This document shows positions 11,096-51,071 of a DNA stretch of 51,239 nt, piece by piece. Source of the DNA: an uncultured Lachnospiraceae bacterium (GTDB lineage: Bacteria > Bacillota > Clostridia > Lachnospirales > Lachnospiraceae); the NCBI GenBank assembly GCA_900319245.1, contig ONNQ01000021.1, positions 1 through 51,239 of the forward strand, written 5' to 3'. The position numbers and the translations under genes are program-made. The notes beneath the pieces are model-generated. The model saw only the letters and a program-made list of their open reading frames with translations. It was not told the DNA's origin and did no database searches. How positions within the stretch are numbered: position 1 is the stretch's first letter; each line of letters starts with the position of its first letter.

Positions 11096-11192
11096 TGGAT
11101 CTCTCCTTTATCAAAATATCCGTCCCAATATCGTAAAAAAGGCAATCAGAAATAAACCAGTGCGATCAGACACCGGAAAACACACATATACG

Positions 11193-11642
11193 TCACATCA
11201 GGAATGGGCTCTGCACGGAAATCTGCTCCAGAAGCAGACAGAGCACGACGCTGATACCAATTGGTACAGCAAAGTGAACAGTTCGGGATCCGTCCCGATC
11301 TCTGACCAGCAGGAACGCGGCGATCACCGCACCGATCAGAAAAGATAGAATGAATGAAACATAAAACCAGCGCACCCCCATGTAGGGAACCAGCGCCAAC
11401 AGCATCTTGATATCCCCGGCTCCGAGTCCCCCGATCTTCCAGAACGGGAAGAGGAAACAGAGCAGCAGGGCCATCGCCCCCAACACGCCGGGAACCTCTT
11501 GCGGCGCCTGTACCGTCAGCAGCCAAATGCCGCCTGCCAGCGAAGTAAGTGTCAGGAAATTGTAGATCCTGCCCCACCGCAGATCCGACGCTGCCGCTGC
11601 CGTCACGAACAGAAGAAGTGCTGTCCGTCCGCCTTCGGTCAA
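11193..11642 (-). CDS. A24-family prepilin peptidase 2, first gene of the Tad locus
   Basis: 149 residues from a TTG at 11642 preceded by AAGGAGGTG; the open frame runs back to 11705 but without a ribosome binding site. The aspartate motifs are SDLRWGRIYN and GAGDIKML, closer to canonical prepilin peptidases than the GEGDG enzyme further down the locus. It is hydrophobic throughout with about five membrane segments. Two peptidases in one locus suggest separate substrates (Flp pilin versus TadE-like proteins), which is inference. Confidence 0.85.
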   Translation of the reverse strand: MTEGGRTALLLFVTAAAASDLRWGRIYNFLTLTSLAGGIWLLTVQAPQEVPGVLGAMALLLCFLFPFWKIGGLGAGDIKMLLALVPYMGVRWFYVSFILSFLIGAVIAAFLLVRDRDGSRTVHFAVPIGISVVLCLLLEQISVQSPFLM

Positions 11643-11841
11643 TGGCTTCACCTCCTTCCTCCGGCTGGTGAAATGATTATAAGAAAAATCCATCTGGGAA
11701 AACAAGACCTTTGAAGCAGGTTTTTCATCTTCGTGAAAACGGCCGAAAACCAGTGTTTTATCCGCTTTTCAGGTCCCTCAAGCCCTCATTTTGAGCCGAT
11801 TTGCGCCTTCCAAAAGCGGTACAGGCCGGCTATAAATCTCG
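11643..11841. other. intergenic region between divergent pilus and rubredoxin genes
   Basis: About 200 nt without a convincing gene. It must hold the promoter of the Tad locus on the minus strand, but no clear -35/-10 pair was found. A small inverted repeat (CTCAAG...TTGAG) lies near 11780-11800. Nothing matching a known riboswitch consensus was recognised. Confidence 0.4.
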
Positions 11842-11870
11842 TTGCAAGGCCTGCGTCCTTCTTATATAAT
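11842..11870 (+). promoter_or_regulatory. rubredoxin promoter
   Basis: TTGCAA (11842-11847), a 17-nt spacer and TATAAT (11865-11870), about 80 nt upstream of the rubredoxin ATG. Confidence 0.75.
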
Positions 11871-11951
11871 GTTATCATCTTAGATCTCTAAGAAGACCTA
11901 TTCATGACACCGCCTTTTCCGCGTGAAAGGGCAGAAAGAGGAGAATACACT

Positions 11952-34546: not shown

Positions 34547-35458
34547 TCAGCGCACAGAAATCATTTTCAGATACCGTTCCAGCGCGTCTGACCAGGCAGG
34601 AAGCCGCACAAAGCCCTTTCTGGTCAGCTTTTCCTTGTCCAGTCTGCTGTTAAAAGGCCGGCTCGCTTTGGAGACGCCATACTCTGCCGTTGTCACCGGA
34701 ATGACGTGCACCGAAAGGCCCGCCTGCTTGAAGATTTCACAAGCAAACGTATACCAGGAAATATAGCCGCCTTCATTGGTAGCGTGATAATAGCCGTACT
34801 CGGTCGTTTCGATCATATCGACGAGGAGCCGGGCCAGGTCATAGGTAAAGGTCGGCGTGCCAATCTGATCGTTTACAACGCGCAGCGTATCGTGCGTCTG
34901 CCCCAGCCTAAGCATTGTTTTGACAAAGTTGCTTCCATTGACGCCAAACACCCATGCAATCCGCACAATAAAGAACCTGCTCACAAGGTCACGAACCGCT
35001 TTTTCACCTTCCAGCTTGGTCTTACCGTAATAATTCAGCGGGCGGTACTCCGTGCAGTCCGGATCCCAAGGCTCCGTTCCCTCTCCGCTGAACACATAAT
35101 CCGTACTCAAATACAACATTTTCGCACCGGCTGCTTCCGCTGCTTCCGCGATATTGCGTGTGCCCAGCGCATTGACTGCGTAAACCTTGTCCTGGTTGGC
35201 GGGGTCTTCCGCGCCGTCAACGTTGGTCCAGGCGGCGCAATGCACGACAGCGTCCGGCTTATAGGCGCGGATCAGCGCATGGACCGCTTCCCGGTCTGTT
35301 ATATCAAGCTGTGCGTAGGGATGCCCATGCAGGGTTCCTCCGTCTTTTTCATCGAGGGGAAGGATGTCTGTTCCAAGTCCCTCATATCCTCTGCCGGCCA
35401 GTTCATTCATAACATCGTACCCAAGCTGACCGCGAACACCTGTCACTACTACTTTCAC
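34547..35458 (-). CDS. rmlD: dTDP-4-dehydrorhamnose reductase
   Basis: 303 residues. N-terminal NADPH site VTGVRGQLGYDV, STDYVFSG, catalytic YYGKTKLEGE (Tyr-x3-Lys) and a C-terminal RPFNSRLDKEKL motif are typical of RmlD. It makes dTDP-L-rhamnose, the last step from dTDP-4-keto-6-deoxyglucose. RmlA, RmlB and RmlC are not in this window. It starts with GTG overlapping the stop of the kinase-like gene. Confidence 0.95.
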   Translation of the reverse strand: MKVVVTGVRGQLGYDVMNELAGRGYEGLGTDILPLDEKDGGTLHGHPYAQLDITDREAVHALIRAYKPDAVVHCAAWTNVDGAEDPANQDKVYAVNALGTRNIAEAAEAAGAKMLYLSTDYVFSGEGTEPWDPDCTEYRPLNYYGKTKLEGEKAVRDLVSRFFIVRIAWVFGVNGSNFVKTMLRLGQTHDTLRVVNDQIGTPTFTYDLARLLVDMIETTEYGYYHATNEGGYISWYTFACEIFKQAGLSVHVIPVTTAEYGVSKASRPFNSRLDKEKLTRKGFVRLPAWSDALERYLKMISVR

Positions 35459-37663: not shown

Positions 37664-38518
37664 TTATTTGCGGTACGCCGTATAGTAATGGTGGCCCTGC
37701 CGGTCTTTCTCCGGCGGAAGCTGCATATAATCGCCATAGGTGTGCCGAAGGATCCTGTCATACCGGGCCGGCACACGGAAACGATAATTCTCAAACGGCA
37801 TGTACTCGTAGGAATCGAACCATTTGCGCAAGTACATGTCCTTGACGCCCCAGGAGAGCCAGATCACACAGCCCACGAATTTGCTCTCATCGTAAGGATA
37901 AACCCGGGCAAGCTTCTCCAGCGCATTCTGAAAGCGCTCCTTGCCGCAAAGTCGGCAAAATACAAAGACCGGCAGTTTCATACACTTCCTGACAAACGAC
38001 GTCGTTGTCTCGATCGCAAAGTGATCTCTGGTCGCCTGATAGCAAAGGGAAGAGAGGCGGTCCCCTTTAAGGCCAAAGCGGACTGCCTCTTTTTGTGTGC
38101 TGCCGAGGCCGTCATAGGGATAGATATCAATAAAGATCCCCATACCAAAGGGCTTTTCGTTCTCCATGACCAGTTCATAGCGCGAATCGCTGATGCGGGT
38201 GATCATATACGGATACGCGGGGCACGTCTGCCGATTAAAGACTTGCAGATGCGGATATTCCCCAATATGTTCATCCAGATACTCCATTAACTTGTCGTGA
38301 TCCGGCCTTGGCATCATAATGTCCACATCGTCGTCCCACGGGATAAAGCCGTGGTGGCGCACGGCGCCGATCAGCGTTCCGTAAACCAGATAATAGCGAA
38401 GTTCCAGCTGTTCACAAATCTCTGCCACCGTGTGCAGGATCTCCAGCGCGATCTGCTGCGTCTCCTGCAGTGTCAGCGCCTCTTTATCGTCTCTCATTTC
38501 TTTGTTTGTCTTATGCAT
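37664..38518 (-). CDS. licD: LicD-family phosphotransferase
   Basis: 284 residues. The nucleotidyltransferase-like signature YGTLIGAVRHHGFIPWDDD followed by VDIMM is a clear LicD motif. LicD enzymes attach phosphocholine or related phospho-alcohols to surface glycans. Last gene of the minus-strand wzz-wzy-wzx unit. Choline metabolism genes are absent here, so the donor is unknown. The start has GGAGGCGG upstream. A 7-bp stem (GTACCGC/GCGGTAC, 37652-37676) spans its stop codon. Confidence 0.92.
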   Translation of the reverse strand: MHKTNKEMRDDKEALTLQETQQIALEILHTVAEICEQLELRYYLVYGTLIGAVRHHGFIPWDDDVDIMMPRPDHDKLMEYLDEHIGEYPHLQVFNRQTCPAYPYMITRISDSRYELVMENEKPFGMGIFIDIYPYDGLGSTQKEAVRFGLKGDRLSSLCYQATRDHFAIETTTSFVRKCMKLPVFVFCRLCGKERFQNALEKLARVYPYDESKFVGCVIWLSWGVKDMYLRKWFDSYEYMPFENYRFRVPARYDRILRHTYGDYMQLPPEKDRQGHHYYTAYRK

Positions 38519-38554
38519 ACCTTTCCGCCTCCGGTCCTTCTGGCACGCCGGTCC

Positions 38555-40030
38555 TTATTTTCCCTGCTTCTTTTTCAAGAAGGGAATATTTCTCTTTATA
38601 ATCGCCCACATCTGCAATGCAAAGCGGTCGCGCATGGCCAGTACACTTACGACATAAATCAGCGCGCCGCCGGCCACCTGCAGCGCAATGCTCTTCCACG
38701 ACCGGTGCAGCCATAAGCGGCTGAGCGTGATCGCCGCAAACATGACGGCGCCTGCCGCCAGATACTTGACCGATGCTTTGATGATCCATGTCAGGCGAAT
38801 GTAATCTCTCGAGAAATAGATAAAAGCAAGGAGAATCGACGTCTCCGCTGCAACGGACGCAATGACGGCGCCCACAGAATAAAACCGGGGAATCAGCAGG
38901 AGATTCAGGCCAAAATTCACAAACGCGCCAAGAATCACGCTTCGGTTGTAATCGGTCTGTCTTCCCACCGGCATCAGGACCTGCTTGCCCACCGCATTGT
39001 TGAGTCCCACAACAATGATCAGCAGGCTGAAGATCTTCAAAAGTGTCGCACTCCTCTCATAGCCCTGTCCGAGGTAAAGCGGTACCAGATAATCCGTGAC
39101 CGAGATCATTCCTATGCACATGGGAATCGCAACAAGGAGAATAAAGCGGATCGTCTGCTCCAGACGGTTCTTCATCCGGTCGATGGCGTTCATGTTGTAA
39201 AGGTTGGCCATGCGGGGCATGGTGACAATACTAAGAGACGTCACAACCGTTACCGCCATCTGCTCAATCTTCTGCGCAAACTCATAATAGCCGTTTTCCA
39301 CAGAGGTCGTCGTAAACCAGCGGATCATCTGCTTGTCGAGGGACAGATAGAAGGTCGTTGCGATCGTCGGAATAAAGTAAATGATACAGGATCGCAGATG
39401 TCTTCGGAGGTTCAGTTCTTTAAGCGGTACGCGGTCCACGAAGGACGGTGTGAAGTACCAGATGGACGCATTTCCAAGGAGTGTCGATCCGTTCATGATC
39501 AGCGCATAGATCAGAAGATCGTCCTGGCTCTTCACAAACGCAAAAATCAGGATCACGCTGGCGACCTTGATGATCGTATTGCGGAGCACGATCTTCTTAA
39601 ACTCCTCAAATCCCTGCAGCAGCCATGCAATGTCAATGGCGCTCGCCATGATCTGTACGAGCAGGACCGCATAGAGCGTCTTGTACTCCGGTCTTGCCAC
39701 AAACCGGATAAAGAGAAGGAAGATCCCCGCCGATCCGAGCATCAAAACAAAGCGCAGTACCGCCAGCTCCCAGAAAACCTGCGAAACGATCTTTCTGTCA
39801 TTGCGGTAGGCGGCTACGCGCAGCTGTCCGTAGGTGGCAATCCCCAGATTCCCAACGAGGGCAAAATAGCCCGTGATCGCGGTTGTGTAGCTGAAGGCAC
39901 CGACTTCCCCCGCCCCCAAAACCCTTGCAATATAGGGCTGGATCATGAGCGGGATCACGACGGCCAGCATCTGGTAGGCCAGATTATATACGTAATTTTT
40001 CTTTACACTTACTTTTCGTTCTGCTTTCAT
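38555..40030 (-). CDS. wzx: Wzx-like polysaccharide flippase (MOP superfamily)
   Basis: 491 residues with about 12-14 hydrophobic helices and the typical start NYVYNLAYQMLAVVIPLMIQPYIARVLGAG of O-unit flippases. It would move the lipid-linked repeat unit across the membrane. The ATG overlaps the stop of the upstream glycosyltransferase (ATGA). It is partner to the Wzy-like polymerase in the same unit. Confidence 0.93.
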   Translation of the reverse strand: MKAERKVSVKKNYVYNLAYQMLAVVIPLMIQPYIARVLGAGEVGAFSYTTAITGYFALVGNLGIATYGQLRVAAYRNDRKIVSQVFWELAVLRFVLMLGSAGIFLLFIRFVARPEYKTLYAVLLVQIMASAIDIAWLLQGFEEFKKIVLRNTIIKVASVILIFAFVKSQDDLLIYALIMNGSTLLGNASIWYFTPSFVDRVPLKELNLRRHLRSCIIYFIPTIATTFYLSLDKQMIRWFTTTSVENGYYEFAQKIEQMAVTVVTSLSIVTMPRMANLYNMNAIDRMKNRLEQTIRFILLVAIPMCIGMISVTDYLVPLYLGQGYERSATLLKIFSLLIIVVGLNNAVGKQVLMPVGRQTDYNRSVILGAFVNFGLNLLLIPRFYSVGAVIASVAAETSILLAFIYFSRDYIRLTWIIKASVKYLAAGAVMFAAITLSRLWLHRSWKSIALQVAGGALIYVVSVLAMRDRFALQMWAIIKRNIPFLKKKQGK

Positions 40031-40896
40031 GCATTCCCATCTCTGTCCATGAGGGCAAGAAACGCCTTTGTGGACTGGAGCAGACATTTCACTGTGAAGA
40101 TCGACTTCACTGACTGCTTGTGATATTCCAGATCTGTCGCTACGTCTTCATGGTGATCGACCCTAAGACGCGGATCATAGATCATCTTTTCCTGATCCCG
40201 CCGGCACTGGTAGCAGAGAATCTCCGCCTCCAGGTACATAAAGGTGCCGTCAAAAAAGCACGCTGTCGGGTGATTTTCCGTAAACACTTTGGAAAACACA
40301 TAGCAGGAGCCGTGCAGAAGCGGATCCTCCACAACGTGATCCACATAGTTCTCCGCCCGTTTCTCCAGTACCGACTGCTTGTGCATAAGTTCCAGGATCC
40401 GCCATTTGAGCGGGATCAGAAACCGCAGGTTGTTCTTGATCGTAAGACTCCTGCAGCTCTTCTCCAAATCCCTTCTTGTCGGCATCTTGCGCGTCTGCGG
40501 ATTCTGGTGATACTTCTTCTTCGTGGAGTAGATATCCGGGCCCATCACCGCGAACCTGTACTCCTCGAAGCTTGCAAAGATCTGTGCGATAAAGTCCTTC
40601 TGCCGGATCTCCATATCGTTGTTCATCACAACCACAAAGTCGGGATCATATTCGCGCACCGCATAGGCGTAGCCAAAATTGTTGCCCTTTGCAAAGCCCA
40701 GGTTTTCAACGGTCTCCAGCACATCGACATCGGCGGCGTCCTGATAGTGCTCCTCAAGTCCCTTGATGGTCCCATTGGGAGAACAGTTGTCCACAATGAT
40801 GATCTTCTTTTCGCCCTCCACGCTGTCCCGGATCGACTCCACGCAGAGGATCGTCTCATCCAGCGCCATGTAGTGCAGTATTACAAAACATACCAT
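40027..40896 (-). CDS. GT2 glycosyltransferase, rhamnosyltransferase-like
   Basis: 289 residues. GT2 pattern: ILHYMALDETILCVESI, VDNCSPNGT, NLGFAKGNNFGY, metal site VVMNNDMEI and C-terminal LHGSCYVFSK. Similar to WcaA/RfbF-type enzymes that add rhamnose or other sugars to repeat units. Cytosolic, no membrane segment. Confidence 0.88.
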   Translation of the reverse strand: MVCFVILHYMALDETILCVESIRDSVEGEKKIIIVDNCSPNGTIKGLEEHYQDAADVDVLETVENLGFAKGNNFGYAYAVREYDPDFVVVMNNDMEIRQKDFIAQIFASFEEYRFAVMGPDIYSTKKKYHQNPQTRKMPTRRDLEKSCRSLTIKNNLRFLIPLKWRILELMHKQSVLEKRAENYVDHVVEDPLLHGSCYVFSKVFTENHPTACFFDGTFMYLEAEILCYQCRRDQEKMIYDPRLRVDHHEDVATDLEYHKQSVKSIFTVKCLLQSTKAFLALMDRDGNA

Positions 40897-40901
40897 GTTG
40901 T

Positions 40902-41882
40902 CTATTCTTTCTCCCCCGCCTGCTGCCCTTCCAGCAGTGCTTGATAATAGGTGCCCGGAATCTGTGTCTTTTCCGGTTCAAATTTATAAGTGAGTTTGTG
41001 AAACGGTGTCATTTCCTTCACCGCGTCCATGACCGTCCCGTCATAGGGTTCGAACAGGCGCAGCAGCAAAATGTGCGGCGCCGCATTGCTGCAAGGAATC
41101 ACCTTATTCCATTCTTCCGGATAGGTCTCGATCGCCAGTTCAAAAAAGTCATGGAACAAATAATAGTCCACCAGGGACGTATGTCTGTACCAGTAATTGT
41201 ACAGAAGCGCTCTCGTCAGGCGCAGGATCGGATGCTGCGTGCACGCCGTGAGGAACCAGCTCGAGATTCTCTGGACATGTCCGTCCCACCCGGGTTTGAG
41301 ATCCTGAAACAGGAAAAGATCGCTGTCCAGCATATATGACGGGGCCTCTCCCGTGCAAAATACAGTGGCGTCGATCCATGTTCCGCCGTAGCGAATGAGG
41401 AGCTCCAGCCGCAGAAGATCCGACATATGTGTTTTGGTGATCTGACCACTGTCGATCTTCTCCTGGATAAACGCGGGGAATTTGGCATACTCCCTGTAAT
41501 TGTCTTCCGTAAGGACATGCACCGTTCTGTCAGGAAATGCGGCCCTTACAGATGCAATGCACCGTTTCACGATCGCCGGCGCTTTGTCCTCTCCGTCCAG
41601 CCAAAGCATCCAGATCTCTTGCGAGCGCGTCCGCTCCCTGTGCTTTGTGCCTGCCTCCGCGCGTTCTTTCTCCAGATACTCCTGTATATAGGCGCGGTTC
41701 TTTTTTCTGAGCCTTTCAAGCATCTTGTTGTTGACGCTGAGCCGCACGATCTCCAGTGATTTCTGCGACGTCCCCTGCAGTGCCGCTTGCACAAGCGCAT
41801 AGCCCAGTACATGGGACTGCAGGTACTGGCGGAGGATCTGCGCGCCGCCGGCTCTTTTAAATTTATCCTTCAGGTCCTTCAT
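40902..41882 (-). CDS. capsular polysaccharide synthesis (Caps_synth/GT32-like) glycosyltransferase
   Basis: 326 residues from the ATG at 41882 (AGGA 4 nt upstream); the frame is open back to 41972 (GTG) without a site. The DXD-type core THMSDLLRLELLIRYGG followed by TWIDATVF matches the Caps_synth family, which transfers sugars in capsule assembly. An 18-bp tandem repeat lies just upstream and stays in frame, so a longer N-terminus cannot be excluded. Confidence 0.85.
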   Translation of the reverse strand: MKDLKDKFKRAGGAQILRQYLQSHVLGYALVQAALQGTSQKSLEIVRLSVNNKMLERLRKKNRAYIQEYLEKERAEAGTKHRERTRSQEIWMLWLDGEDKAPAIVKRCIASVRAAFPDRTVHVLTEDNYREYAKFPAFIQEKIDSGQITKTHMSDLLRLELLIRYGGTWIDATVFCTGEAPSYMLDSDLFLFQDLKPGWDGHVQRISSWFLTACTQHPILRLTRALLYNYWYRHTSLVDYYLFHDFFELAIETYPEEWNKVIPCSNAAPHILLLRLFEPYDGTVMDAVKEMTPFHKLTYKFEPEKTQIPGTYYQALLEGQQAGEKE

Positions 41883-41890
41883 CTCGTCCT

Positions 41891-41944
41891 GTCCTTTTGT
41901 GCGGATCTGTCCTTTTGTACGGATCCGGCTTTTTGTATTGATCC
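41891..41944. repeat. three 18-bp tandem repeats upstream of the Caps_synth gene
   Basis: Plus-strand units of about GTCCTTTTGTACGGATCC begin at 41891, 41909 and 41927. On the minus strand each contains ACAAAAGG or a close variant, a Shine-Dalgarno-like motif. As 18 is a multiple of three the array keeps the frame open and would encode IRTKGQ-like hexapeptides if translated. Confidence 0.75.
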
Positions 41945-41968
41945 GGCCACTTGCCACGCAAGGCGTCC

Positions 41969-42667
41969 TCACCGCAGGAGGCCGCGCTTATTGAGTGCTA
42001 CCATAATCCGCCCGGTCTTGTCGTCGATCTCTTCTTCTCTTCTAACTGTGACCACCTTATGACTGTTTTCATACGCTGTGTTGAGGCGGGCGTATTCCCG
42101 CAAAATGCCCCGGAGCGCATCGTCCGGCAGCTCGTCGAAGTCACAGATATGGCGATTTCTCTTCCTGAGAGAAGCAAAACAGCTGTCCTGAGCGATCGCG
42201 TTATATACAACCAGCCGTTTTCCGGAGATTCCGCTTTCCGCTGCCTCCATGAGCTTTAAGAAGGTTTCCTCTTGCAGCGCGAAGTCTGCGCAGAATTTCA
42301 CGACCGCGTGGACCAGGCCCTCGTCAAACAGATATACCGTGTCTGACCGCATCATGCGCCTGTAGACCAGACGAAAGACCGCGGCGCTCTCCAGCGTATA
42401 CCGCTCGTCCTTGTAGATCCCGTACTGACTGTGCGCCTGGCTCTCCGCCCGCAGCGCCTTTTCCATTCGCGCCTGCAGCCTTCTTGCGTTTCTTTCAAGA
42501 AAGATCCCCGCATGCAGAAGCTTCCGGGCTGCTTTCCATGAGACCCGGTTCATACTGCGGTCCGACGCGTTGACACAGCGGACGCCGTTTTTCCGGATCT
42601 CCTCTTCCAAATGCGCCATCAAGTATGTTTTGCCGCTTCCCGGAAGTCCAATGCACTCAATAACCAT
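41969..42667 (-). CDS. P-loop kinase-like protein in the polysaccharide unit
   Basis: 232 residues. N-terminal Walker A IGLPGSGKTYL and a plausible Walker B (TVYLFDEGLVH) are seen; the rest is helical and charged. It looks like a small nucleotide or sugar kinase/P-loop NTPase, but I do not recognise a specific family. It overlaps wzy by 11 nt and has GGAGGTG upstream, so it belongs to the operon. Confidence 0.7.
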   Translation of the reverse strand: MVIECIGLPGSGKTYLMAHLEEEIRKNGVRCVNASDRSMNRVSWKAARKLLHAGIFLERNARRLQARMEKALRAESQAHSQYGIYKDERYTLESAAVFRLVYRRMMRSDTVYLFDEGLVHAVVKFCADFALQEETFLKLMEAAESGISGKRLVVYNAIAQDSCFASLRKRNRHICDFDELPDDALRGILREYARLNTAYENSHKVVTVRREEEIDDKTGRIMVALNKRGLLR

Positions 42668-43970
42668 GCTGCACCTCCGGCTTCGCCTCCATGCCGATTC
42701 TGTCTCGTTCCCAACGGACGCAATATGGCATCAGTGTGACGATGAAGGTCATCATCACCATTGAGTTGTTGCATGGATACGAGGACTGTATCGAGGAGAA
42801 GAGTACGTTCGCGATATACAAATACGCCGCGAATCGAATATACAGGTTTCCGGATCTCTTTGCATTCCGATATATATCATAGAATATAATGATCATTAAT
42901 AGAATGTACGGGATCATCCCGAACAGCCCCAGCTGCGTAAAGATCATGGGCCAGAACGTATCATTGAGATACTTGGTATTGGTCGGCTGCATTCCCGCGA
43001 CCGTGTTGAACTCCAGAATATAGTAAAGCTGAGAGTAATTGGTCGCCGCGGTGCTGGATCCAAACGTGCCAAAGCCCGTCCCGTAAGGAAAATATTCCTG
43101 AAACAGCCGCAACCCGCCCTGCCAGAAAAGCTGTCTGGGAGCAGTGCCGCGGTTTGCCGTGACACCGTTGACAAAATAGTTCTGATACTGAGGATAGCCG
43201 ATCACCCCGCCGATGATTGCGATGACCAGAATCCTCAACCTCATATCCTGCTTCTTTTCCAGCACAAAGGACTCAAATAAGACAAGTGCTGTAGCTGCCA
43301 GAATCAACGACCTGGATTTGATCACCATGATCAGCACCGCGATTGCCATAAGAAGAAAAACCTTGTTGGACCGTTCCTCATGAAGTGCCGAATCCAATAA
43401 AAGAAGCATGATGATATAGAGCACCGTATTTGTGACAATACCGGGCGTTCCAAAAACAAACGAGTAGTTGCGCAGTCCGTACCGGATCTCTCCGTACATG
43501 CCAAGATCAACAAAGATGTTGAGCACGCCGAACACAAACAGTACGATCAGATATCCCTTGGCCAGAAGAACCGGGATCCGCGCCGCTTCTTCTATATTCC
43601 AGTGCCGCTTTCTCGCAGCGGACGTCACGCCCAGATAGAGCAGTGCGTACTTGAAGTGACTGACAATATCCAGGTAGATGGCAGAATTGACATCCTGGAT
43701 TCCGAATTTCCAGTTTCCATAAAGACCCGCCGCTGTCGCCCACAGGATCAGAAAACAGATTCCAATTTCCCGGATCCTGGCTTCGCCGCTCACGATCAGA
43801 TCCAATACAAACACGCCGCAGAACAGCGCCGCAAGCCCTTCGTCTATATAGGATGACTGCGAAAAATAGTTCTCCAGAAGCGTCTGAAAGAGAAACAGGG
43901 TCATGATCGCACTCAGAAGCCAGGTCGTCCCGATCCCGGTCTGCGCGTCGATCCGTTTATCCGCTCTCAT
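42657..43970 (-). CDS. wzy: Wzy-like O-antigen/capsule polymerase
   Basis: 437 residues, nearly all hydrophobic with about 11-12 helices and a large external loop between residues 270 and 350 (NGVTANRGTAPRQLFWQGG), the layout of O-antigen ligase/polymerase proteins. It would join repeat units on the outer face after Wzx. The start has GGAGGTAACT upstream. Confidence 0.82.
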   Translation of the reverse strand: MRADKRIDAQTGIGTTWLLSAIMTLFLFQTLLENYFSQSSYIDEGLAALFCGVFVLDLIVSGEARIREIGICFLILWATAAGLYGNWKFGIQDVNSAIYLDIVSHFKYALLYLGVTSAARKRHWNIEEAARIPVLLAKGYLIVLFVFGVLNIFVDLGMYGEIRYGLRNYSFVFGTPGIVTNTVLYIIMLLLLDSALHEERSNKVFLLMAIAVLIMVIKSRSLILAATALVLFESFVLEKKQDMRLRILVIAIIGGVIGYPQYQNYFVNGVTANRGTAPRQLFWQGGLRLFQEYFPYGTGFGTFGSSTAATNYSQLYYILEFNTVAGMQPTNTKYLNDTFWPMIFTQLGLFGMIPYILLMIIIFYDIYRNAKRSGNLYIRFAAYLYIANVLFSSIQSSYPCNNSMVMMTFIVTLMPYCVRWERDRIGMEAKPEVQHGY

Positions 43971-43988
43971 AGTTACCTCCGCGTCTTA

Positions 43989-45443
43989 TTACATAAAGAC
44001 GATGGAGCCAACCGCTTCCCTGCCCAGAAGGCTAAGGATCGAAAGGACGTCGCCTACGCCCTTATAGCTGGATCTCTCCGCTCTCGCGACAACCACCGCC
44101 GCATCACAGTTCTCGATTGCCGCCATCGCTTCCGGCGTCTGCTCTGCGCACGGCACAGAAAAGTAACGGATTCTGCCGTTGCCTGACTTGTTAAGCTCCG
44201 CGCAGATCTTGTCCAGATATTCCGTCTGCAAGTCGCTTACAAGCGCGACCTGCGCGCCTCTTTGAAAGAGAATGCCGAGTCCGGCGTCTGCCACCTGCAG
44301 GCATACCGCTCTCTTGGGATGGTTATAATAAGAAGCATCGATGGACGCCACAAGCTTGTCCAGACCCTTTTTGGTGCTGAATTTCCTGCCGGGGACGCAT
44401 GCGATCTTCTGCAGTCCAAAGTGGTTGTTGAGTTCTCTCGCCGACAAAACCTTGCCCGTTGCCAGAAGATACAGAACGATCAGACACACACACGCCAAAA
44501 TACCGCCAACGGCGCCTGCGCAGGCCTGCTTGACGGCGCCTTTCACCACATCCCGTTTCGATGTCTTCTCTACGACAACACTGTTCCCCGAAGCGAGGTT
44601 CTTGTCCAACGTCTTTTTGGAGTTGATCAGCTGTACGATCTCCGTCGCACGGTTGTAGGCCCACTTATACATGCCTGTGTCGTTGATCGTAGCGGCGAGC
44701 TCATTGGCAACCGTCATGGTGTGCGGGCCATACTGCGCCTGGGCTTCCGGCTCCATCTGCCGCAGCTGCGCAATGACCTCGTCCAGGATGAGCTTTGCGC
44801 CTTCCTGATCGGGGTAAATGACCTTGACCGTGATAAAAGAATTTTTATTCGTACTATACTTAAAGGAAATCAGCTCGTAGAGCCTGTTGGCTGTCGTCCC
44901 CAGCTGCTGTGCCACATTTGTAAGGTCTGTGCGATACATGGCGGAATTGCCATAGTAGTTGAGAATCGTCATTTCTCTGTTCTGCACTTGGGCGTATTCC
45001 TGTGGTACCGCCTGCGTTTCCGCAGCCGCTTCCTCTGCCGCGCCTTCCCCGGCAGCCTGGTCTTCCGTCTCTGTCTGTGCAGGCTGTGCAGCCTCCACTG
45101 CCTCATCGCCAATCGTTACGATCACGTCTGCAGACGCGAAGCCTTCCTTTGTCGGGTCGATGTCCCCCATAATAGACTCCGTGAAATACGCGTTCTTGAG
45201 ATCCAGCTGGTTATTGATCCTGCGCATTTCAATCGCCTTGGACGCCCCTTGCGAATCCTCTTCGGGGGCTGCTTCCTGTTCAGGCTGCGCCTGTCCCTGT
45301 TTGTATACTTTATATAATTCAAACCCTTTGAGCCCGCCAAATAAGAGCGCCGCCACAAGGGCAACCACGAGAATCCCTTTCCATTTTTCCAATACACAGC
45401 GGATCAATGCTTTTAAGTCTACAATTCGTTCTTTTTTATACAT
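43989..45443 (-). CDS. Wzz-like polysaccharide co-polymerase with C-terminal kinase-like remnant (2)
   Basis: 484 residues from the ATG at 45443 (GGAGAGG upstream). Two membrane helices flank an external region containing an Ala/Glu-rich low-complexity stretch near residues 120-160. The cytosolic C-terminus has ALVSDLQTEYLDKICAELNK and ends GSIVFM, resembling the end of bacterial tyrosine kinases, but no Walker A is present. First gene of the wzz-wzy-wzx-licD unit. Confidence 0.8.
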   Translation of the reverse strand: MYKKERIVDLKALIRCVLEKWKGILVVALVAALLFGGLKGFELYKVYKQGQAQPEQEAAPEEDSQGASKAIEMRRINNQLDLKNAYFTESIMGDIDPTKEGFASADVIVTIGDEAVEAAQPAQTETEDQAAGEGAAEEAAAETQAVPQEYAQVQNREMTILNYYGNSAMYRTDLTNVAQQLGTTANRLYELISFKYSTNKNSFITVKVIYPDQEGAKLILDEVIAQLRQMEPEAQAQYGPHTMTVANELAATINDTGMYKWAYNRATEIVQLINSKKTLDKNLASGNSVVVEKTSKRDVVKGAVKQACAGAVGGILACVCLIVLYLLATGKVLSARELNNHFGLQKIACVPGRKFSTKKGLDKLVASIDASYYNHPKRAVCLQVADAGLGILFQRGAQVALVSDLQTEYLDKICAELNKSGNGRIRYFSVPCAEQTPEAMAAIENCDAAVVVARAERSSYKGVGDVLSILSLLGREAVGSIVFM

Positions 45444-45501
45444 ATATTCCTCTCCAACCGGCATCTGCCATTTGAGCCTAGTGTCCTAATGTATCACCGT
45501 A

Positions 45502-45618: not shown

Positions 45619-46752
45619 ATGGCAAAAATACCCTTTAACATTCCTCCGTTCATCGGAACGGAACTTGATTATGTAAAACAGGCGATCGACGCACACAAGA
45701 TTTGCGGCGACGGACAATTTACCAAGAAATGTAATGCTTGGATCCAGGAGCGCTTCGGCGCGACTGGTGCGCTTCTTACGACCAGCGGCACCACTGCGCT
45801 TGAAATGGCGACGCTTCTGTGCGGCCTTGAAAAGGGCGATGAAGTCATCCTGCCCAGCTTTACCTTCTCCAGCACGGCGACTTCGATCGTCCTGACCGGT
45901 GCGACGCCTGTATTCGTGGATATCCGTCCGGATACCATGAACATCGATGAGCGCAAAATCGAAGAAGCGATCACAGACAAGACCAAGGCCATCATGGCCG
46001 TACACTACGCAGGCGTCAGCTGCGAGATGGACACCATCATGGAGATTGCCCGCAGACACGACCTCAAGGTTATCGAAGATGCCGCGCAGGGCGTCATGTC
46101 CACCTACAAAGGAAAAGCGCTGGGCACGATCGGTGATTTCGGCTGCTATTCCTTCCATGAGACCAAGAACTATTCCATGGGTGAGGGCGGCGCACTGATC
46201 CTCAACCACAAGGAAGATATTGAGCCGGCTGAGATTCTCAGAGAGAAAGGGACCGACAGGGCCCGCTTTTTCCGCGGCCAGGTCGACAAATACACCTGGG
46301 TGGAATATGGCAGCAGCTATCTCCCCAGTGATATGAACGCCGCTTACCTCTGGGCGCAGCTCCAGGAGGCGGACCGCATCAACGACAACCGTCTGGCTAC
46401 CTGGCACGCCTATGACGACGCTTTCCGCCCTCTTGAGAAAGAAGGCAGGATTGTGCTGCCCACAATTCCGGACGGCTGCGTACACAATGCGCACATGTAC
46501 TATGTCAAGCTCCGGGATCTTCATGAGAGAACGGATTTTATCAATTACCTGCATAGCCATGACGTCGGCTGCGTCTTCCACTATGTGCCCCTGCACTCTG
46601 CGCCGGCCGGCAAACGATTCGGCCGCTTCCACGGCGAAGACGTCTACACAACGAAAGAGAGCGACCGTCTGGCAAGACTGCCTCTCTACTACGGTATGAC
46701 AGAGGAAGATCGGAATAAGGTGATCACTACCGTGCTCTCCTATTTTGACTGA
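45619..46752 (+). CDS. wecE: dTDP-4-amino-4,6-dideoxygalactose transaminase (WecE/RffA type)
   Basis: 377 residues, the same length as E. coli WecE, and many stretches look nearly identical (CGDGQFTKKC, DIRPDTMNID, VHYAGVSCEMDTIM, EDAAQGVMSTYKGKALGTIG, FRGQVDKYTW). The PLP lysine lies in FHETKNYSMGEGGA. It aminates dTDP-4-keto-6-deoxyglucose to dTDP-Fuc4N with glutamate as donor. Start ATG at 45619 has AGAGGA 9 nt upstream. First gene of a five-gene plus-strand cassette. Confidence 0.95.
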   Translation: MAKIPFNIPPFIGTELDYVKQAIDAHKICGDGQFTKKCNAWIQERFGATGALLTTSGTTALEMATLLCGLEKGDEVILPSFTFSSTATSIVLTGATPVFVDIRPDTMNIDERKIEEAITDKTKAIMAVHYAGVSCEMDTIMEIARRHDLKVIEDAAQGVMSTYKGKALGTIGDFGCYSFHETKNYSMGEGGALILNHKEDIEPAEILREKGTDRARFFRGQVDKYTWVEYGSSYLPSDMNAAYLWAQLQEADRINDNRLATWHAYDDAFRPLEKEGRIVLPTIPDGCVHNAHMYYVKLRDLHERTDFINYLHSHDVGCVFHYVPLHSAPAGKRFGRFHGEDVYTTKESDRLARLPLYYGMTEEDRNKVITTVLSYFD

Positions 46753-46772
46753 TTTACAGATTGGAGTATTTC

Positions 46773-47774
46773 GTGAACATTCATGCAATTCATAAGAGCG
46801 GAAGGAAGCTGATCAGCTTCATCATTCCGTGCTACCACAGTGAAGGGTCCGTAGGACTCGTCATAGATGAAATTCGTCAGGTCGTCTCCGAGCGGCCTGA
46901 TTTTACTTATCAAATCATTGCCGTCAACGACTGCTCGCCGGACAATCTGCTGGACGTCATTCGGCGCGAGGCGGAGAAGGATCCGCAGGTTCTGGCCATT
47001 GACCTTGCCAAGAACGGCGGGCGTCACAACGCGCTGATCTGCGGATGCCATTATGCGGACGGCGATTATATCGTCTTCATTGACGACGACCAGCAGTGCC
47101 CCACCGACAGGCTCTGGGACCTTATGGACCCGCTGATCAATGGCGATGCCGACGTATCAATCGCCAAGTATCCCCACAAGACCCAGTCCGGCTTCAAGAA
47201 TTTTGGTTCCAAAGTCAACGACACAGTCGCCAACTGGCTGCTCGGCAAGGACAAAGATCTGAAGTTTTCCAACTTCTCTGTCATGAAGCGCTTTGTCAAG
47301 GACGAGGTAATTAAGTATAAAAACCCCTATCCCTATCTCTCCGGCCTGATGCTCCGCTCTACCAAAAACGTGGTGAATGTGGAGATGGAAGAAAGGGAGC
47401 GTACGATCGGCGTTGGCCACTACAGCTTCAAGAAATCCTTTGCGCTGTGGATGAACAGTTTTACCGCGTTTTCCGTAAAGCCTTTGCGCTTTGCGACCAC
47501 TTGCGGCGTCGCCTTCGCCTGCATTGGTATGCTGCTCGTCGTGTATACGGTCATTCACAAACTCGTCAACCCCAATGTGGCGATCGGCTATAGTTCCCTT
47601 ATGTCTATGCTGCTGTTTATCGGCGGCATGATCATGTTCATGCTGGGTCTCATCGGCGAATATATTGGAAGAATCTATATCTCTCTCAATAACTCGCCCC
47701 AGTTCGTGATCCGCCAGATTTATGGGCAGGAAGAGGGTGACCACAATTGTGAGAATGGAGATCAAAATGGATAA
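46773..47774 (+). CDS. ArnC/GtrB-like polyprenyl-phosphate glycosyltransferase
   Basis: 333 residues from a GTG at 46773 (GGAG 6 nt upstream; a TTG at 46761 is also in frame). GT2 motifs IIPCYHSEGS, NDCSPDN and the metal motif FIDDDQQCP are followed by two C-terminal membrane helices (FACIGMLLVVYTVIH and LLFIGGMIMFMLGLIGEYIG). The family loads a sugar onto undecaprenyl phosphate. Lying after the transaminase it probably transfers the aminosugar. It overlaps the ATP-grasp gene. Confidence 0.9.
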   Translation: MNIHAIHKSGRKLISFIIPCYHSEGSVGLVIDEIRQVVSERPDFTYQIIAVNDCSPDNLLDVIRREAEKDPQVLAIDLAKNGGRHNALICGCHYADGDYIVFIDDDQQCPTDRLWDLMDPLINGDADVSIAKYPHKTQSGFKNFGSKVNDTVANWLLGKDKDLKFSNFSVMKRFVKDEVIKYKNPYPYLSGLMLRSTKNVVNVEMEERERTIGVGHYSFKKSFALWMNSFTAFSVKPLRFATTCGVAFACIGMLLVVYTVIHKLVNPNVAIGYSSLMSMLLFIGGMIMFMLGLIGEYIGRIYISLNNSPQFVIRQIYGQEEGDHNCENGDQNG

Positions 47775-48990
47775 CATACTGATCATTGGGGCTGGCGATT
47801 TCCAGCTCCCGCTTGTACAAAGAGCATCAAAATCCTATAACGTCTATCTGGCCGCACCTGTAATCTCCGACGCATTCACGCCTTATATCAAGGGTTCTCT
47901 CCTCATCGACGTACGCGATAAAGACGCAATCCTTGCCTTTGCGCGCGAGCACTCGATCTGCGGCGTCACGACGGACCAGACCGATATCGCAGTCCGATCG
48001 GTTGCCTATGTCGCCGAACAGCTGGGGCTCCCCGGCATCGGCTATGAGACCGGCGTTTTATTCACGGACAAGAGCCTGATGCGGACCCGCATGGCGGAAC
48101 TTGGCATCAAACTCCTGCCCAACCGTACGGTGACCTCCCTCGAGGAGGCCCTCTCCTACTATGAAGAGATCGGCGGCGATGTGATCATTAAACCCTTGGA
48201 TACCCAGGGCAGCCGGGGCGTACAGGTTTGCTGCAGTGCTGCAGAGCTGACTGCCAAATATGCGGAGGCTGCACGCTGGTCTTCTAACCACGAAGTGATC
48301 GTCGAGCGATTTGCGACCGGACGTGAATTCGTCGTGGAAGGTCTGGCTGTCGACTATGAATTCCGCAATCTCTGTATTGGAGATACGCTGTATTTTGACC
48401 TGCCTGACGCGTTTGCGGCCAAGAGCCGAATCTTCCCCACGCTGGCGGACGACGCGCTGGCGCAGCGCGTGCTGGATCTCAACACACGCATTATCACGGG
48501 ATTTGGTCTCAAGCAGGGCATTACGCACAGTGAATTTATCATGGATGGCGACGAAATCTACCTGATCGAGACGGCAGCGAGAGGCGGCGGCGTCTTTATT
48601 TCCTCCGACCTGATCAGTCTCTCCAGCGGACTCGATACAGAGGGCTTCCTTCTGGACATTGCGACCGGCAAGCAGAACGGCCTTCCTACAATCAAGCCGC
48701 AGCAGTGCGTGTGCGGATACCTGGCCTTCTACATCCCCACCGGCAAGGTTGTCCGCGTGGAGGGCGTCAAGGAAGTGCAGGCGCTTCCCTATGTGCACCG
48801 CAACCAGCTGTCCAAATTGCAGGTCGGCAAGGAAAACAAAGAGGGGCATACCGATAAGACCTCCCGCCTGGCTCTGATCGTCAGTGCGCCGGACCGGGAG
48901 ACATTTAACCAGCGGGCTGCGCAGATCCGTCAAATGCTGCAGGTCGAGACCGAGACGGCAGACGGTATAAAGCCCCTAATATGGGAGTGA
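47767..48990 (+). CDS. ATP-grasp ligase
   Basis: 407 residues from the ATG at 47767 (GGAG 6 nt upstream), overlapping the previous gene by 8 nt. An N-terminal pre-ATP-grasp Rossmann region (ILIIGAGDFQLPLVQRA) precedes the ATP-grasp core: DVIIKPLDTQGSRGVQV, EVIVERFATGREFVVEG and IETAARGGGVF for metal and phosphate binding. The C-terminal domain resembles carboxylase/ligase lids. Such enzymes activate a carboxylate as acyl-phosphate and join it to an amine. With an aminosugar pathway around it, the amine could be the sugar's 4-amino group (inference). Confidence 0.9.
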   Translation: MDNILIIGAGDFQLPLVQRASKSYNVYLAAPVISDAFTPYIKGSLLIDVRDKDAILAFAREHSICGVTTDQTDIAVRSVAYVAEQLGLPGIGYETGVLFTDKSLMRTRMAELGIKLLPNRTVTSLEEALSYYEEIGGDVIIKPLDTQGSRGVQVCCSAAELTAKYAEAARWSSNHEVIVERFATGREFVVEGLAVDYEFRNLCIGDTLYFDLPDAFAAKSRIFPTLADDALAQRVLDLNTRIITGFGLKQGITHSEFIMDGDEIYLIETAARGGGVFISSDLISLSSGLDTEGFLLDIATGKQNGLPTIKPQQCVCGYLAFYIPTGKVVRVEGVKEVQALPYVHRNQLSKLQVGKENKEGHTDKTSRLALIVSAPDRETFNQRAAQIRQMLQVETETADGIKPLIWE

Positions 48991-48998
48991 GGTAAGAC

Positions 48999-49364
48999 GT
49001 GTTAGATCAATTTCTAAGTAAAAGACGCAATATTATATTTCTGGCGATCGTCGCCGTCTTCATGGAGAGCCTGACGTCTCCCTGCCTGAAGCTCGGCGGC
49101 AAATACCCGTTTCTCTCTACCGGCTACATCGCCTGGTTCTGTCTGGCGGTCGTGATTCTCGGCTTTTATGCCGTCTGCTGGCAGCTGATCCTGGAGAAGC
49201 TTCCGCTGACAACCGCCTACCTGCGACGCGGGTTCAGCTATATCCTGATTTTTGTGTGGGCTACCTTGATCTTCCATGAGACCATTACATGGAAACAGAT
49301 TCTCGGCATTATCGTCATCTCGATCGGCATGGTCGTCAGTATCAGCGACGAGAAATCGAACTGA
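48999..49364 (+). CDS. small EamA/SMR-type membrane protein, ArnE-like subunit
   Basis: 121 residues with four hydrophobic helices, GTG start with GAGGT upstream. In helix 1 Glu23 and Lys31 in MESLTSPCLK match the spacing of Glu14 and Lys22 in the EmrE drug transporter. Pairs of such half-size proteins flip undecaprenyl-phosphate-linked aminosugar in the Arn pathway (ArnE/ArnF). The second copy follows directly. Confidence 0.82.
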   Translation: MLDQFLSKRRNIIFLAIVAVFMESLTSPCLKLGGKYPFLSTGYIAWFCLAVVILGFYAVCWQLILEKLPLTTAYLRRGFSYILIFVWATLIFHETITWKQILGIIVISIGMVVSISDEKSN

Positions 49365-49389
49365 TTGCAGCAGCATTGGAGGCAACCCT

Positions 49390-49755
49390 ATGAATTCTGA
49401 ACTTTTTACGCCCGCGTTTTGTTATGGCGCCGCCATCGTGGCCGCTTTTGTCACCGCGCTGAGCCAGATCATTCTTAAGAAGCAGGCCAATATCACAGAG
49501 GCCAAAAAAAGCGGATTCTTTGCCAAATTCCTGAATCCGCGTGTCATTATCTCTTATGGACTTTTATTCTCCACCCTGGTCATTAACCAGGTGGCCCTGA
49601 TCCATGTGCCGGTATCTGTCATGCCTTGCATCACAGCGACCAGTTTCGTATGGGTCTTCGTCATGGGCGTTCTCATTCTCAAAGAGAAAGTATCCAGGCG
49701 CAGGGCGCTCGGCGTCGCCATTATTATTCTGGGAGTCATTATTTCCAGACTGTAG
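49390..49755 (+). CDS. small EamA/SMR-type membrane protein, ArnF-like subunit
   Basis: 121 residues from the ATG at 49390 (GGAGG upstream), with four helices. At the position of the acidic residue in its partner there is Thr22 (TALSQIILK). It probably forms a heterodimer with the preceding protein. Last gene of the cassette; no terminator was recognised in the 50 nt before the convergent neighbour. Confidence 0.82.
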   Translation: MNSELFTPAFCYGAAIVAAFVTALSQIILKKQANITEAKKSGFFAKFLNPRVIISYGLLFSTLVINQVALIHVPVSVMPCITATSFVWVFVMGVLILKEKVSRRRALGVAIIILGVIISRL

Positions 49756-49805: not shown

Positions 49806-51071
49806 TTAATGAATTACCTCTGACAGGTTCGATGCGGCTTCCAAGCCAACATGGGAGAGCGCCGCAGATGTAAAATGAATATAATTCCTTTTTTTCTCTT
49901 TCACTTTATAGGATGGATCATTACTATATCTGGATCTTCTCAAAGCTTCCTCGTAGGGAAGCTTTTTTCCGTCACTGCCCATCGTCACTTCTGTGTGGCA
50001 GTTTTCGTAGTCCTCCTCTGCCGGAACATATCGATCGTAAAAGTAAGAGGACCCCATAATAATATCTTTGTTCCTCTTGATCAGATCCTCCTGCGCTTGA
50101 TGAACTGCATTAAGACGTTCCATCGTTCCCGTACCAGTGGTTGTAGCAGTTTCTACTATTACCCCCCATTCAATGCCAAGATCTCTTTTTAGTTTTCTGT
50201 GCAATGTCTTATACATTCTCTTGTATGCTCTTTTCGTCGTTTTCGAACTGACATCTGATTCGCCTTGTGCGATCACATAAATCTTATTGCCAATATGAAG
50301 GTTCCTGCTTTCGGCAAGCTTTACGGCTGCGTTAAATTTTGTTCTTATTGCTTCATAGACATAGCACTTAAATCTTGTATTTCTCTTGTCATCCTGAGGA
50401 AGAAATGTCTGAATCGGCACGCCTCTTTTTCCAGCACATACAGCAATGACTTTATGCCCCGTCAACGCATAATAGGTCTGGCAGAACTGAGGAACCATAT
50501 TTGTGCCGCTAGACGAAGCCAGTGAAGTGTTTGTCTGATCCGAATCCTTGAATGCAATCAACTCACCATCTTTATAAACCAGATTTTCTCCATAGTTGCT
50601 TTTCCGTGTGGAGTCTATTTCACGGAAAGTGTTTGTCAAATATCTGTATTCATAAACTGTGTTCTTTTCCTGCTTGACAGAAACGAAATTCAGCGTTTCG
50701 CCATTATTGGCTAAAATATTGCTCTCAATTCCCGTCGCTGATGCGTACTCTTCAATGTTTAGCGCTCCAGAATAGCTATACTGATTGCGATTGTACCTGT
50801 CCTCTATTTCATTTCTAGCGCTTCCAACCATATTGGATTGCCCGGTAAAGAGAATAATGTCATAAATGTCTTCCTTCGGTTGAACCAGCTCTGTCCCATT
50901 GCTTGAAAAAGGTTCGTAAGCGCCGCCATTGTGCAACTGTAACCGCCGCCAAAAATAATAATTGTGATTGATTATATGTGTTATAATAATCAAGGAAATC
51001 GTGCATATGCCCAAAAGGAATGCCCTATTTGTGTCTTTTCTTACGACGAATCGATGCGTCAATTTATGCAT
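49806..51071 (-). CDS. membrane-anchored SASA/SGNH-type esterase, sialate-O-acetylesterase-like
   Basis: 421 residues with GAGAGGGA upstream. One N-terminal membrane helix (FLLGICTISLIIITHII) puts the rest outside. The nucleophile motif ILFTGQSNMVG, the oxyanion block AQGESD and a C-terminal YIHFTSA with the catalytic His are SASA family signatures. It probably removes acetyl groups from surface glycans. The gene appears more AT-rich than its neighbours, which may signal transfer. Confidence 0.85.
   Translation of the reverse strand: MHKLTHRFVVRKDTNRAFLLGICTISLIIITHIINHNYYFWRRLQLHNGGAYEPFSSNGTELVQPKEDIYDIILFTGQSNMVGSARNEIEDRYNRNQYSYSGALNIEEYASATGIESNILANNGETLNFVSVKQEKNTVYEYRYLTNTFREIDSTRKSNYGENLVYKDGELIAFKDSDQTNTSLASSSGTNMVPQFCQTYYALTGHKVIAVCAGKRGVPIQTFLPQDDKRNTRFKCYVYEAIRTKFNAAVKLAESRNLHIGNKIYVIAQGESDVSSKTTKRAYKRMYKTLHRKLKRDLGIEWGVIVETATTTGTGTMERLNAVHQAQEDLIKRNKDIIMGSSYFYDRYVPAEEDYENCHTEVTMGSDGKKLPYEEALRRSRYSNDPSYKVKEKKRNYIHFTSAALSHVGLEAASNLSEVIH

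Follow-up and report, generated by a model that had tools for sequence, protein, structure and literature searches.

A conserved five-gene operon of Lachnospiraceae and related Clostridia predicted to supply a lipid-linked, N-acylated 4-amino-4,6-dideoxygalactose

The DNA analysed here (the window) is a stretch of 51,239 nucleotides, contig ONNQ01000021.1 of an uncultured Lachnospiraceae bacterium, and its positions 45619-49755 are filled by five close-packed open reading frames (ORFs) of the plus strand, as judged from the ORF list of the window and from family searches. They encode a WecE/RffA-type transaminase, a family 2 glycosyltransferase (GT2), an ATP-grasp ligase and two small membrane proteins of the SMR type (Table 1); all the gene types named in the initial annotation were recovered by family matches. 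We consider it fairly probable that the function of this operon is to produce a lipid-linked N-acylated 4-amino-4,6-dideoxygalactose (Fuc4N) and to export it, so that a surface polymer can be decorated.

Table 1. Genes of the five-gene locus, with predicted functions (aa, amino acids; TM, transmembrane).
Feature	Position	Strand	Family matches and features
WecE/RffA-type transaminase, 377 aa	45619..46752	+	TIGR02379, NF008687; nearest structures 4piw/4zah
GT2 polyprenyl-phosphate glycosyltransferase, GtrB/ArnC/PgfS-like	46773..47774	+	PF00535; two C-terminal TM helices
ATP-grasp carboxylate-amine ligase, 407 aa, LAL_C2 C-terminal domain	47767..48990	+	PF02786, PF13535, PF18603
SMR/EamA-type small membrane protein 1, 121 aa, likely flippase half	48999..49364	+	PF00892; weak ArnF
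SMR/EamA-type small membrane protein 2, 121 aa, likely other flippase half	49390..49755	+	sub-cut-off EamA; weak ArnE

The intergenic gaps amount to 20, -8, 8 and 25 bases, given a GT2 start at GTG 46773, the start of the ligase gene overlapping the end of the GT2 gene by 8 bases. A start at TTG 46761 is possible as well, and GTG 46773 is preferred because several relatives start there (those of L021, L022 and L038 begin V-N-I-D; loci, genomes and contigs are cited by handles in L, G and C, G000 being the genome of the window). Promoter-like sites occur at the chance level (4 seen, with a mean of 4.1). The grouping of the genes itself is more than chance, since their order is kept in loci of two families. 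Relatives were sought with exact peptide patterns over one genome for each of 84,980 species, a scan that reaches close relatives only; it yielded 23 loci, nearly all of them metagenome bins, from Lachnospiraceae, Oscillospiraceae, other Clostridiales bins, Mogibacterium and Candidatus Onthomonas. The five genes stand in order in 14 of the 23 loci, uninterrupted in L019-L026 and L036 and with one gene inserted in L029-L033, and this agrees with the conserved co-occurrence in Clostridia that had been proposed earlier. Five loci (L027, L028, L037, L039, L041) are truncated by contig ends and are consistent with this order as far as they can be read; the SMR pair is absent from L038, and the ligase is located apart from WecE in L034, L035 and L040.

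The transaminase matches over its full length both TIGR02379 (617.9 bits, cut-off 434.85) and NF008687 (617.2 bits, cut-off 375), and its nearest solved relatives, 4piw/4zah, are annotated as deoxythymidine diphosphate (dTDP)-4-amino-4,6-dideoxygalactose transaminase (E 1.9e-167). These matches lead us to predict a sugar step of the WecE type, giving dTDP-Fuc4N, and not of the Arn type. An RmlB gene is located downstream on the minus strand in 11 of the 23 loci, as the next gene in 10 of them and as the next but one in L019, while in L041 RmlA and RmlB follow the operon in line. A single dTDP-glucose 4,6-dehydratase of the genome of the window passes the cut-off, and its gene is on contig C63, not on that of the window; the window itself holds RmlD, of the rhamnose branch, at 34547-35458. 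Among 200 genomes of the family of the window, one per genus (the family being taken as Lachnospiraceae from named relatives), WecE is present at E 1e-100 in 65, at 66 places, with a GT2 gene nearby at 45.

The initial annotation regarded the cassette as Arn-like, with the ATP-grasp enzyme where ArnA and ArnD would be. The order of roles (aminate, load, flip) is the same, which would suit a Gram-positive Arn variant; however, all the Arn equivalog models that find a match remain far below their cut-offs (ArnB 191.3 bits against 631, ArnC 113.6 against 529, ArnE 37.7 against 92, ArnF 39.4 against 99), and at E 0.001 none of the five proteins, to which this search was confined, matches ArnA or ArnD. 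Those two enzymes serve to make and to unmask the sugar, tasks that WecE and the Rml enzymes would already cover. We consider such a variant highly improbable.

As to the loading and the export of the sugar, the GT2 protein has GtrB sll0501 (5ekp, E 2e-28) and ArnC (9hwj, E 1.2e-25) as its nearest solved relatives, and its C-terminal hydrophobic segments span residues 243-261 and 276-294. SMR protein 1 matches PF00892 (EamA) with 30.2 bits, over the cut-off of 28.2, and SMR protein 2 stays under it with 24.8 bits. The two have an opposite bias of lysine and arginine (K/R), 7 versus 2 in protein 1 and 1 versus 11 in protein 2 (with helix limits set by hand), so that by charge protein 1 is likely N-in and protein 2 N-out. 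An opposite K/R bias of adjacent genes is given as a criterion for paired SMR heterodimer flippases in the excerpted text of PMC9574504, and the pair described here is likely to be such a heterodimeric flippase. Among the five proteins it is found instead of a flippase of the GtrA family, which was not searched for in the rest of the genome.

The acceptor-side transferase, which the initial annotation had placed outside the window, is most readily sought among YfhO proteins. A YfhO protein of about 1250 residues heads the operon, directly upstream, in 6 of the 23 loci (L027, L029-L033; that of L030 matches PF09586 with 365.7 bits), and YfhO is divergent to the operon in L026. In the genome of the window we found 8 YfhO matches in six ORFs (one of them a contig-end fragment), all off the contig of the window. 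According to the text available from PMC7389260, YfhO is thought to transfer lipid-linked N-acetylglucosamine to lipoteichoic acid in Bacillus and to wall teichoic acid in Listeria. PMT_2 (PF13231), tried as another acceptor transferase, has no match in the genome of the window at E 0.001.

The role of the ATP-grasp ligase is suggested by its place beside WecE. We took stretches for all 66 WecE places of the family genomes and classed the genes located within 6 kb of WecE: a relative of the ATP-grasp ligase is present at 24 places, a PseH-like N-acetyltransferase of the GNAT family at 17, both at 0 and neither at 25. This exclusion gives a Fisher p of 1.1e-4 for the 66 places and of 2.3e-5 for the 45 with GT2 nearby, figures to be read with a broad GT2 class (profile, E 1e-45), unequal fetched flanks and the non-independence of related genomes in mind. 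At the 24 ATP-grasp places the PseH-like GNAT profile finds no match even at E 0.05; its seeds were taken from loci without ATP-grasp, a choice that biases the count towards exclusion for this one family of GNATs. Of the 17 GNAT matches, those of L166 and L173 are weak, and L101 and L102 hold strong GNATs, yet more than 6 kb from WecE. Three of the GNATs, tested against the PseH model, score just under its cut-off (78.7, 85.0 and 90.8 against 93.1). The name of the PseH model implies acetylation at the 4-amine of a 4-amino-4,6-dideoxy sugar, and an excerpt of PMC7439462 has WecD acetylating the 4-amine of dTDP-Fuc4N. Since the ligase and the PseH-like GNAT exclude each other beside WecE, the ATP-grasp enzyme most likely N-acylates the 4-amino group of the sugar, and we infer that it replaces an N-acetyltransferase (a PseH/WecD-like step) rather than ArnA/ArnD as initially supposed. 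The SMR pair is associated with the ATP-grasp gene as well, being present at 13 of 24 such WecE places versus 7 of the other 42 (p 0.002).

The ligase itself consists of the domains CPSase_L_D2 (PF02786), ATP-grasp_4 (PF13535) and LAL_C2 (PF18603), the last barely over its cut-off (29.7 versus 29.4). A profile of 17 ligase sequences matches 4dim (named phosphoribosylglycinamide synthetase), the L-amino acid ligase BL00235 and BacD. Residues K142, E180, E187, E268 and R272 are invariant in the 17 aligned ligases (one of them incomplete), and their columns align with those of BL00235 and BacD; the equivalog of the alanine-anticapsin ligase BacD is not reached (62.6 bits against 850). The nearest solved relatives include L-amino acid ligases and BacD, so the ATP-grasp enzyme might produce a free small dipeptide or some different metabolite and have no part in the pathway beyond its place in the operon, the Fuc4N amine remaining free as a cationic decoration like aminoarabinose (Ara4N), and a free amine would match the logic of Arn. 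The mutual exclusion with the PseH-like N-acetyltransferase speaks against this reading, as does the recurrent pairing with GT2, which lies within 2 kb at 27 of 92 ATP-grasp places (E 1e-40) in several clades; we therefore think it improbable.

If the ligase acylates the sugar, an amino acid would be our first guess for the acid and a hydroxy acid the second. Amino acids are favoured because relatives of the ligase are fused to, or located near, enzymes of amino-acid metabolism. An enzyme of the PALP family is fused to ATP-grasp in L163 (8841-10988) and L119 (1-2073) and lies one gene from it in L054 and L060; those of L163, L054 and L060 are of the D-cysteine desulfhydrase/1-aminocyclopropane-1-carboxylate deaminase/CuyA (D-cysteate sulfo-lyase) kind, under the equivalog cut-offs. 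An Asp/Glu racemase gene adjoins ATP-grasp in L053 and is about 1.3 kb off in L051. Both L056 and L112 have a MaoC gene adjoining GT2 or ATP-grasp. The racemase of L051 (13226-13951) has a cysteate racemase model as its best match, under the cut-off, and the ATP-grasp of that locus (9908-11893) is fused behind a cytidylyltransferase in what appears by eye to be a pseudaminic-acid-like cluster. Elsewhere in the genome of the window (G000:C57:16343-18832; L050 8338-10836) two ATP-grasp paralogues are encoded in tandem, with 32% and 31% identity to the ATP-grasp of the window; by eye, this second polysaccharide-type cluster also contains DegT-like transaminases and a sugar-phosphate transferase.

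A second enzyme accompanies the ligase. In L028-L033 and L041 a PaaK/CapK-like adenylate-forming enzyme (hereafter CapK) is encoded between the ligase and SMR genes; it matches PF00501 weakly, and its nearest solved relatives are PaaK, AjiA1 and a PaaK-like ligase. In the genome of the window the CapK gene is located on another contig (G000:C35:82916-84229; 59% identity), and its product best matches PaaK coenzyme A (CoA) ligase models, far under the cut-off, with no DdaG match at E 0.001. CapK accompanies the ligase in 22 of 23 genomes, whether inside the operon or unlinked, and is missing from G220 alone. It is rare overall: it occurs in 9 of the 200 family genomes, one of the matches being merely 24% alike, and in 2 of 391 class-level genomes (E 1e-60), the second of which is, by its coordinates, very likely the Mogibacterium already counted. 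Without the 24%-identity match, all 8 CapK genomes have ATP-grasp and GT2 genes paired within 2 kb of each other, as do 24 of the 200 in total (p 1.3e-8); with the own genome of the window omitted the figures are 7 of 7 and p 1.1e-7. In 6 of these 7 other family genomes CapK lies within 3 kb of ATP-grasp, and in G121 it is on another contig. In G215 and G216 it is the ligase that is unlinked, CapK standing beside WecE and GT2; L144 and L145 carry YfhO-WecE-GT2-CapK. This reciprocal unlinking with retained co-occurrence argues for one pathway, and the rarity and linkage of CapK argue against a role as a catabolic CoA ligase. Unlinked Lachnospiraceae CapK genes (L138-L143, L146, L147, L063) have mostly similar neighbours by eye, namely a TetR-like regulator, a membrane protein and often an amylase-like gene.

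In the ATP-grasp tree the CapK-associated enzymes fall into separate clades, with three label changes forced by supported branches. The tree was built without the long rows L118 and L176, without L115, L116 and L120 (the same genes as L156, L152 and L154) and without L129 and L169 (cut by stretch ends), and the CapK label was assigned by locus, the second ATP-grasps of G069 and G152 and those at G000:C57 being counted as lacking CapK. CapK-associated ATP-grasps form at least two separate groups; only two can be regarded as safe because L154 is on a very long branch.

One possibility, which we put forward tentatively, is a tandem acylation in which the ATP-grasp and the PaaK-like enzyme form one amide each, the sugar carrying an N-acyl-aminoacyl (pseudodipeptide) group. 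The two enzymes co-occur and are often adjacent, CapK accompanies ATP-grasps of separate clades, as the three forced label changes indicate, and there are weak matches of the ligase of the window to DdaF and of the CapK proteins of L040 and L149 to DdaG; the available text of PMC12568646 describes two amide-forming enzymes, DdaG and DdaF, within one pathway, that of dapdiamide. On the other hand, the CapK of the window genome itself is closest to the PaaK CoA-ligase models and, as stated, finds no DdaG, and the three label changes may also be one gain and two losses. If it exists, and we hold this to be possible at best, a two-ligase system free of non-ribosomal peptide synthetases would assemble the pseudodipeptide on the Fuc4N 4-amine, either ahead of the loading on undecaprenyl phosphate or following it, and a surface polymer of gut Clostridia would thereby acquire peptide-like side groups. 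The acyl slot next to the WecE and glycosyltransferase genes would then be swappable between acetyl, an amino acid and a two-part acyl group.

CapK could instead supply a hydroxy or fatty acid, as CoA ester or acyl adenylate (acyl-AMP), which the ATP-grasp enzyme attaches as the single acid. The resemblance of CapK to phenylacetate-CoA ligase agrees with this, and the MaoC genes of L056 and L112 would fit 3-hydroxy acids. However, ATP-grasp ligases use free acids, so that a pre-activated acid would be redundant, and we regard this arrangement as rather unlikely.

For the N-acylation of lipid-linked Fuc4N, which we prefer, the following sequence of steps can be proposed. RmlA and RmlB would produce dTDP-4-keto-6-deoxyglucose, which WecE would aminate to dTDP-Fuc4N. 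The ATP-grasp ligase would activate a carboxylate as acyl phosphate and amidate the 4-amino group with it, its partner, the unlinked PaaK/CapK-like enzyme, most likely activating the acid or adding a second acyl unit. GT2 would load the sugar on undecaprenyl phosphate, the SMR pair would flip the lipid-linked sugar as a heterodimer, and a YfhO GT-C enzyme, whose gene belongs to the operon in several relatives from Oscillospiraceae and Clostridiales and is unlinked in the genome of the window, would transfer it to a wall or membrane polymer. The steps of WecE and GT2 are predicted from strong family matches, and those of the ligase, the SMR pair and YfhO from domains, gene context and co-occurrence. 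In these respects the initial annotation is supported, on grounds of family and context, as to the Fuc4N sugar, the loading on lipid phosphate by GT2, the flipping by the SMR pair and the amidation of the sugar amine; what it missed is the unlinked PaaK-like adenylating partner and the YfhO transferase.

Among the known systems, the Arn aminoarabinose pathway is similar in its ArnC-like GT2 and paired SMR flippase (PMC9574504, in excerpt), but its sugar is another one, and the cassette of five has no ArnA, ArnD or ArnT. A closer scheme appears to be a dTDP-Fuc4N supply like that of the enterobacterial common antigen joined to a system of the CsbB/GtcA/YfhO type. In the WecE-WecD branch leading to dTDP-Fuc4NAc of that antigen (PMC7439462, as excerpted) RmlA, RmlB and WecE likewise give dTDP-Fuc4N, the 4-amine of which is then acylated; unlike it, the operon has an ATP-grasp ligase for the acetyltransferase and would place a monosaccharide on lipid phosphate, not a repeat unit on pyrophosphate. 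In the CsbB/GtcA/YfhO glycosylation of lipoteichoic or wall teichoic acid in Bacillus, Listeria and Staphylococcus (available text of PMC7389260 and PMC8035078) the charging of undecaprenyl phosphate is the task of a GT-A enzyme, a small membrane protein putatively acts as flippase, and the GT-C enzyme YfhO transfers the sugar to the cell wall polymer. In contrast, the operon has the SMR/EamA pair in the place of GtcA, and the sugar would be made and, as we propose, N-acylated by genes of the same operon. By analogy, the mechanism may resemble multi-component transmembrane glycosylation (PMC8035078) with an SMR pair as in Arn (PMC9574504) replacing GtcA. The dapdiamide enzymes DdaG/DdaF, together with BacD and the L-amino acid ligases (PMC12568646, in part), likewise combine an ATP-grasp with an adenylate-forming amide synthetase in one pathway; here, unlike there, the proposed amine is that of a sugar, the product would be exported on a lipid, and the amide activity of CapK is putative.

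Several observations weigh against the N-acylated, lipid-linked product. Neither acylating gene was found at 25 of the 66 WecE places, and other acylating genes occur: an FkbH-type protein is encoded between GT2 and WecE, in the place of the acylating gene, in L090 (4978-6735); in L058 a GNAT gene from a different family stands between those of ATP-grasp and GT2; and L112 encodes a PglD-like hexapeptide protein close to ATP-grasp. These genes and the 25 empty places show that the swap is not absolute. The counted ATP-grasps are divergent, about 20-33% identical to that of the window where measured. Three loci (L054, L060 and L055) have the ATP-grasp-GT2 pair with no WecE in the stretch fetched, and 65 of the 92 ATP-grasp places have no such GT2 (E 1e-60) within 2 kb, which means that the superfamily serves other pathways too. 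In the 17 kb of the Mogibacterium locus (L040) the ligase and CapK are encoded, but neither WecE nor GT2. The CapK gene of the window genome lies apart from the operon, CapK belongs to a sequence class that spans CoA ligases and amide synthetases, and the matches of the SMR proteins to the ArnF and ArnE models, given above, are weak.

Known pathways account for the sugar part of the proposal; what looks new is the ligase together with its unlinked partner. In the open-access library searched we found no paper combining Fuc4N with ATP-grasp or YfhO with ATP-grasp, and none describing the product. The prediction is that many gut and rumen Clostridia bear N-acylated Fuc4N on their surface, with an acyl group varying by the swap of one gene, and the ATP-grasp/PaaK-like link points to amide chemistry on lipid-linked sugars. 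Speculatively, some of the diversity of antigens and phage receptors in these bacteria might have its origin here.

As for the surroundings of the operon, positions 37664-45464 directly upstream hold divergent minus-strand genes of polysaccharide type, LicD-like and chain-length-like by eye, with weak matches to MurJ, a rhamnosyltransferase and Wzy_C. Genes resembling them are found in L019-L021 and L038, and mostly different ones in L023-L026. Just downstream, at 49806-51071, lies a convergent SASA/acetylesterase-like gene; it is not the next gene in L020-L026, where RmlB stands instead, and L019 has an ORF of 576 residues there.

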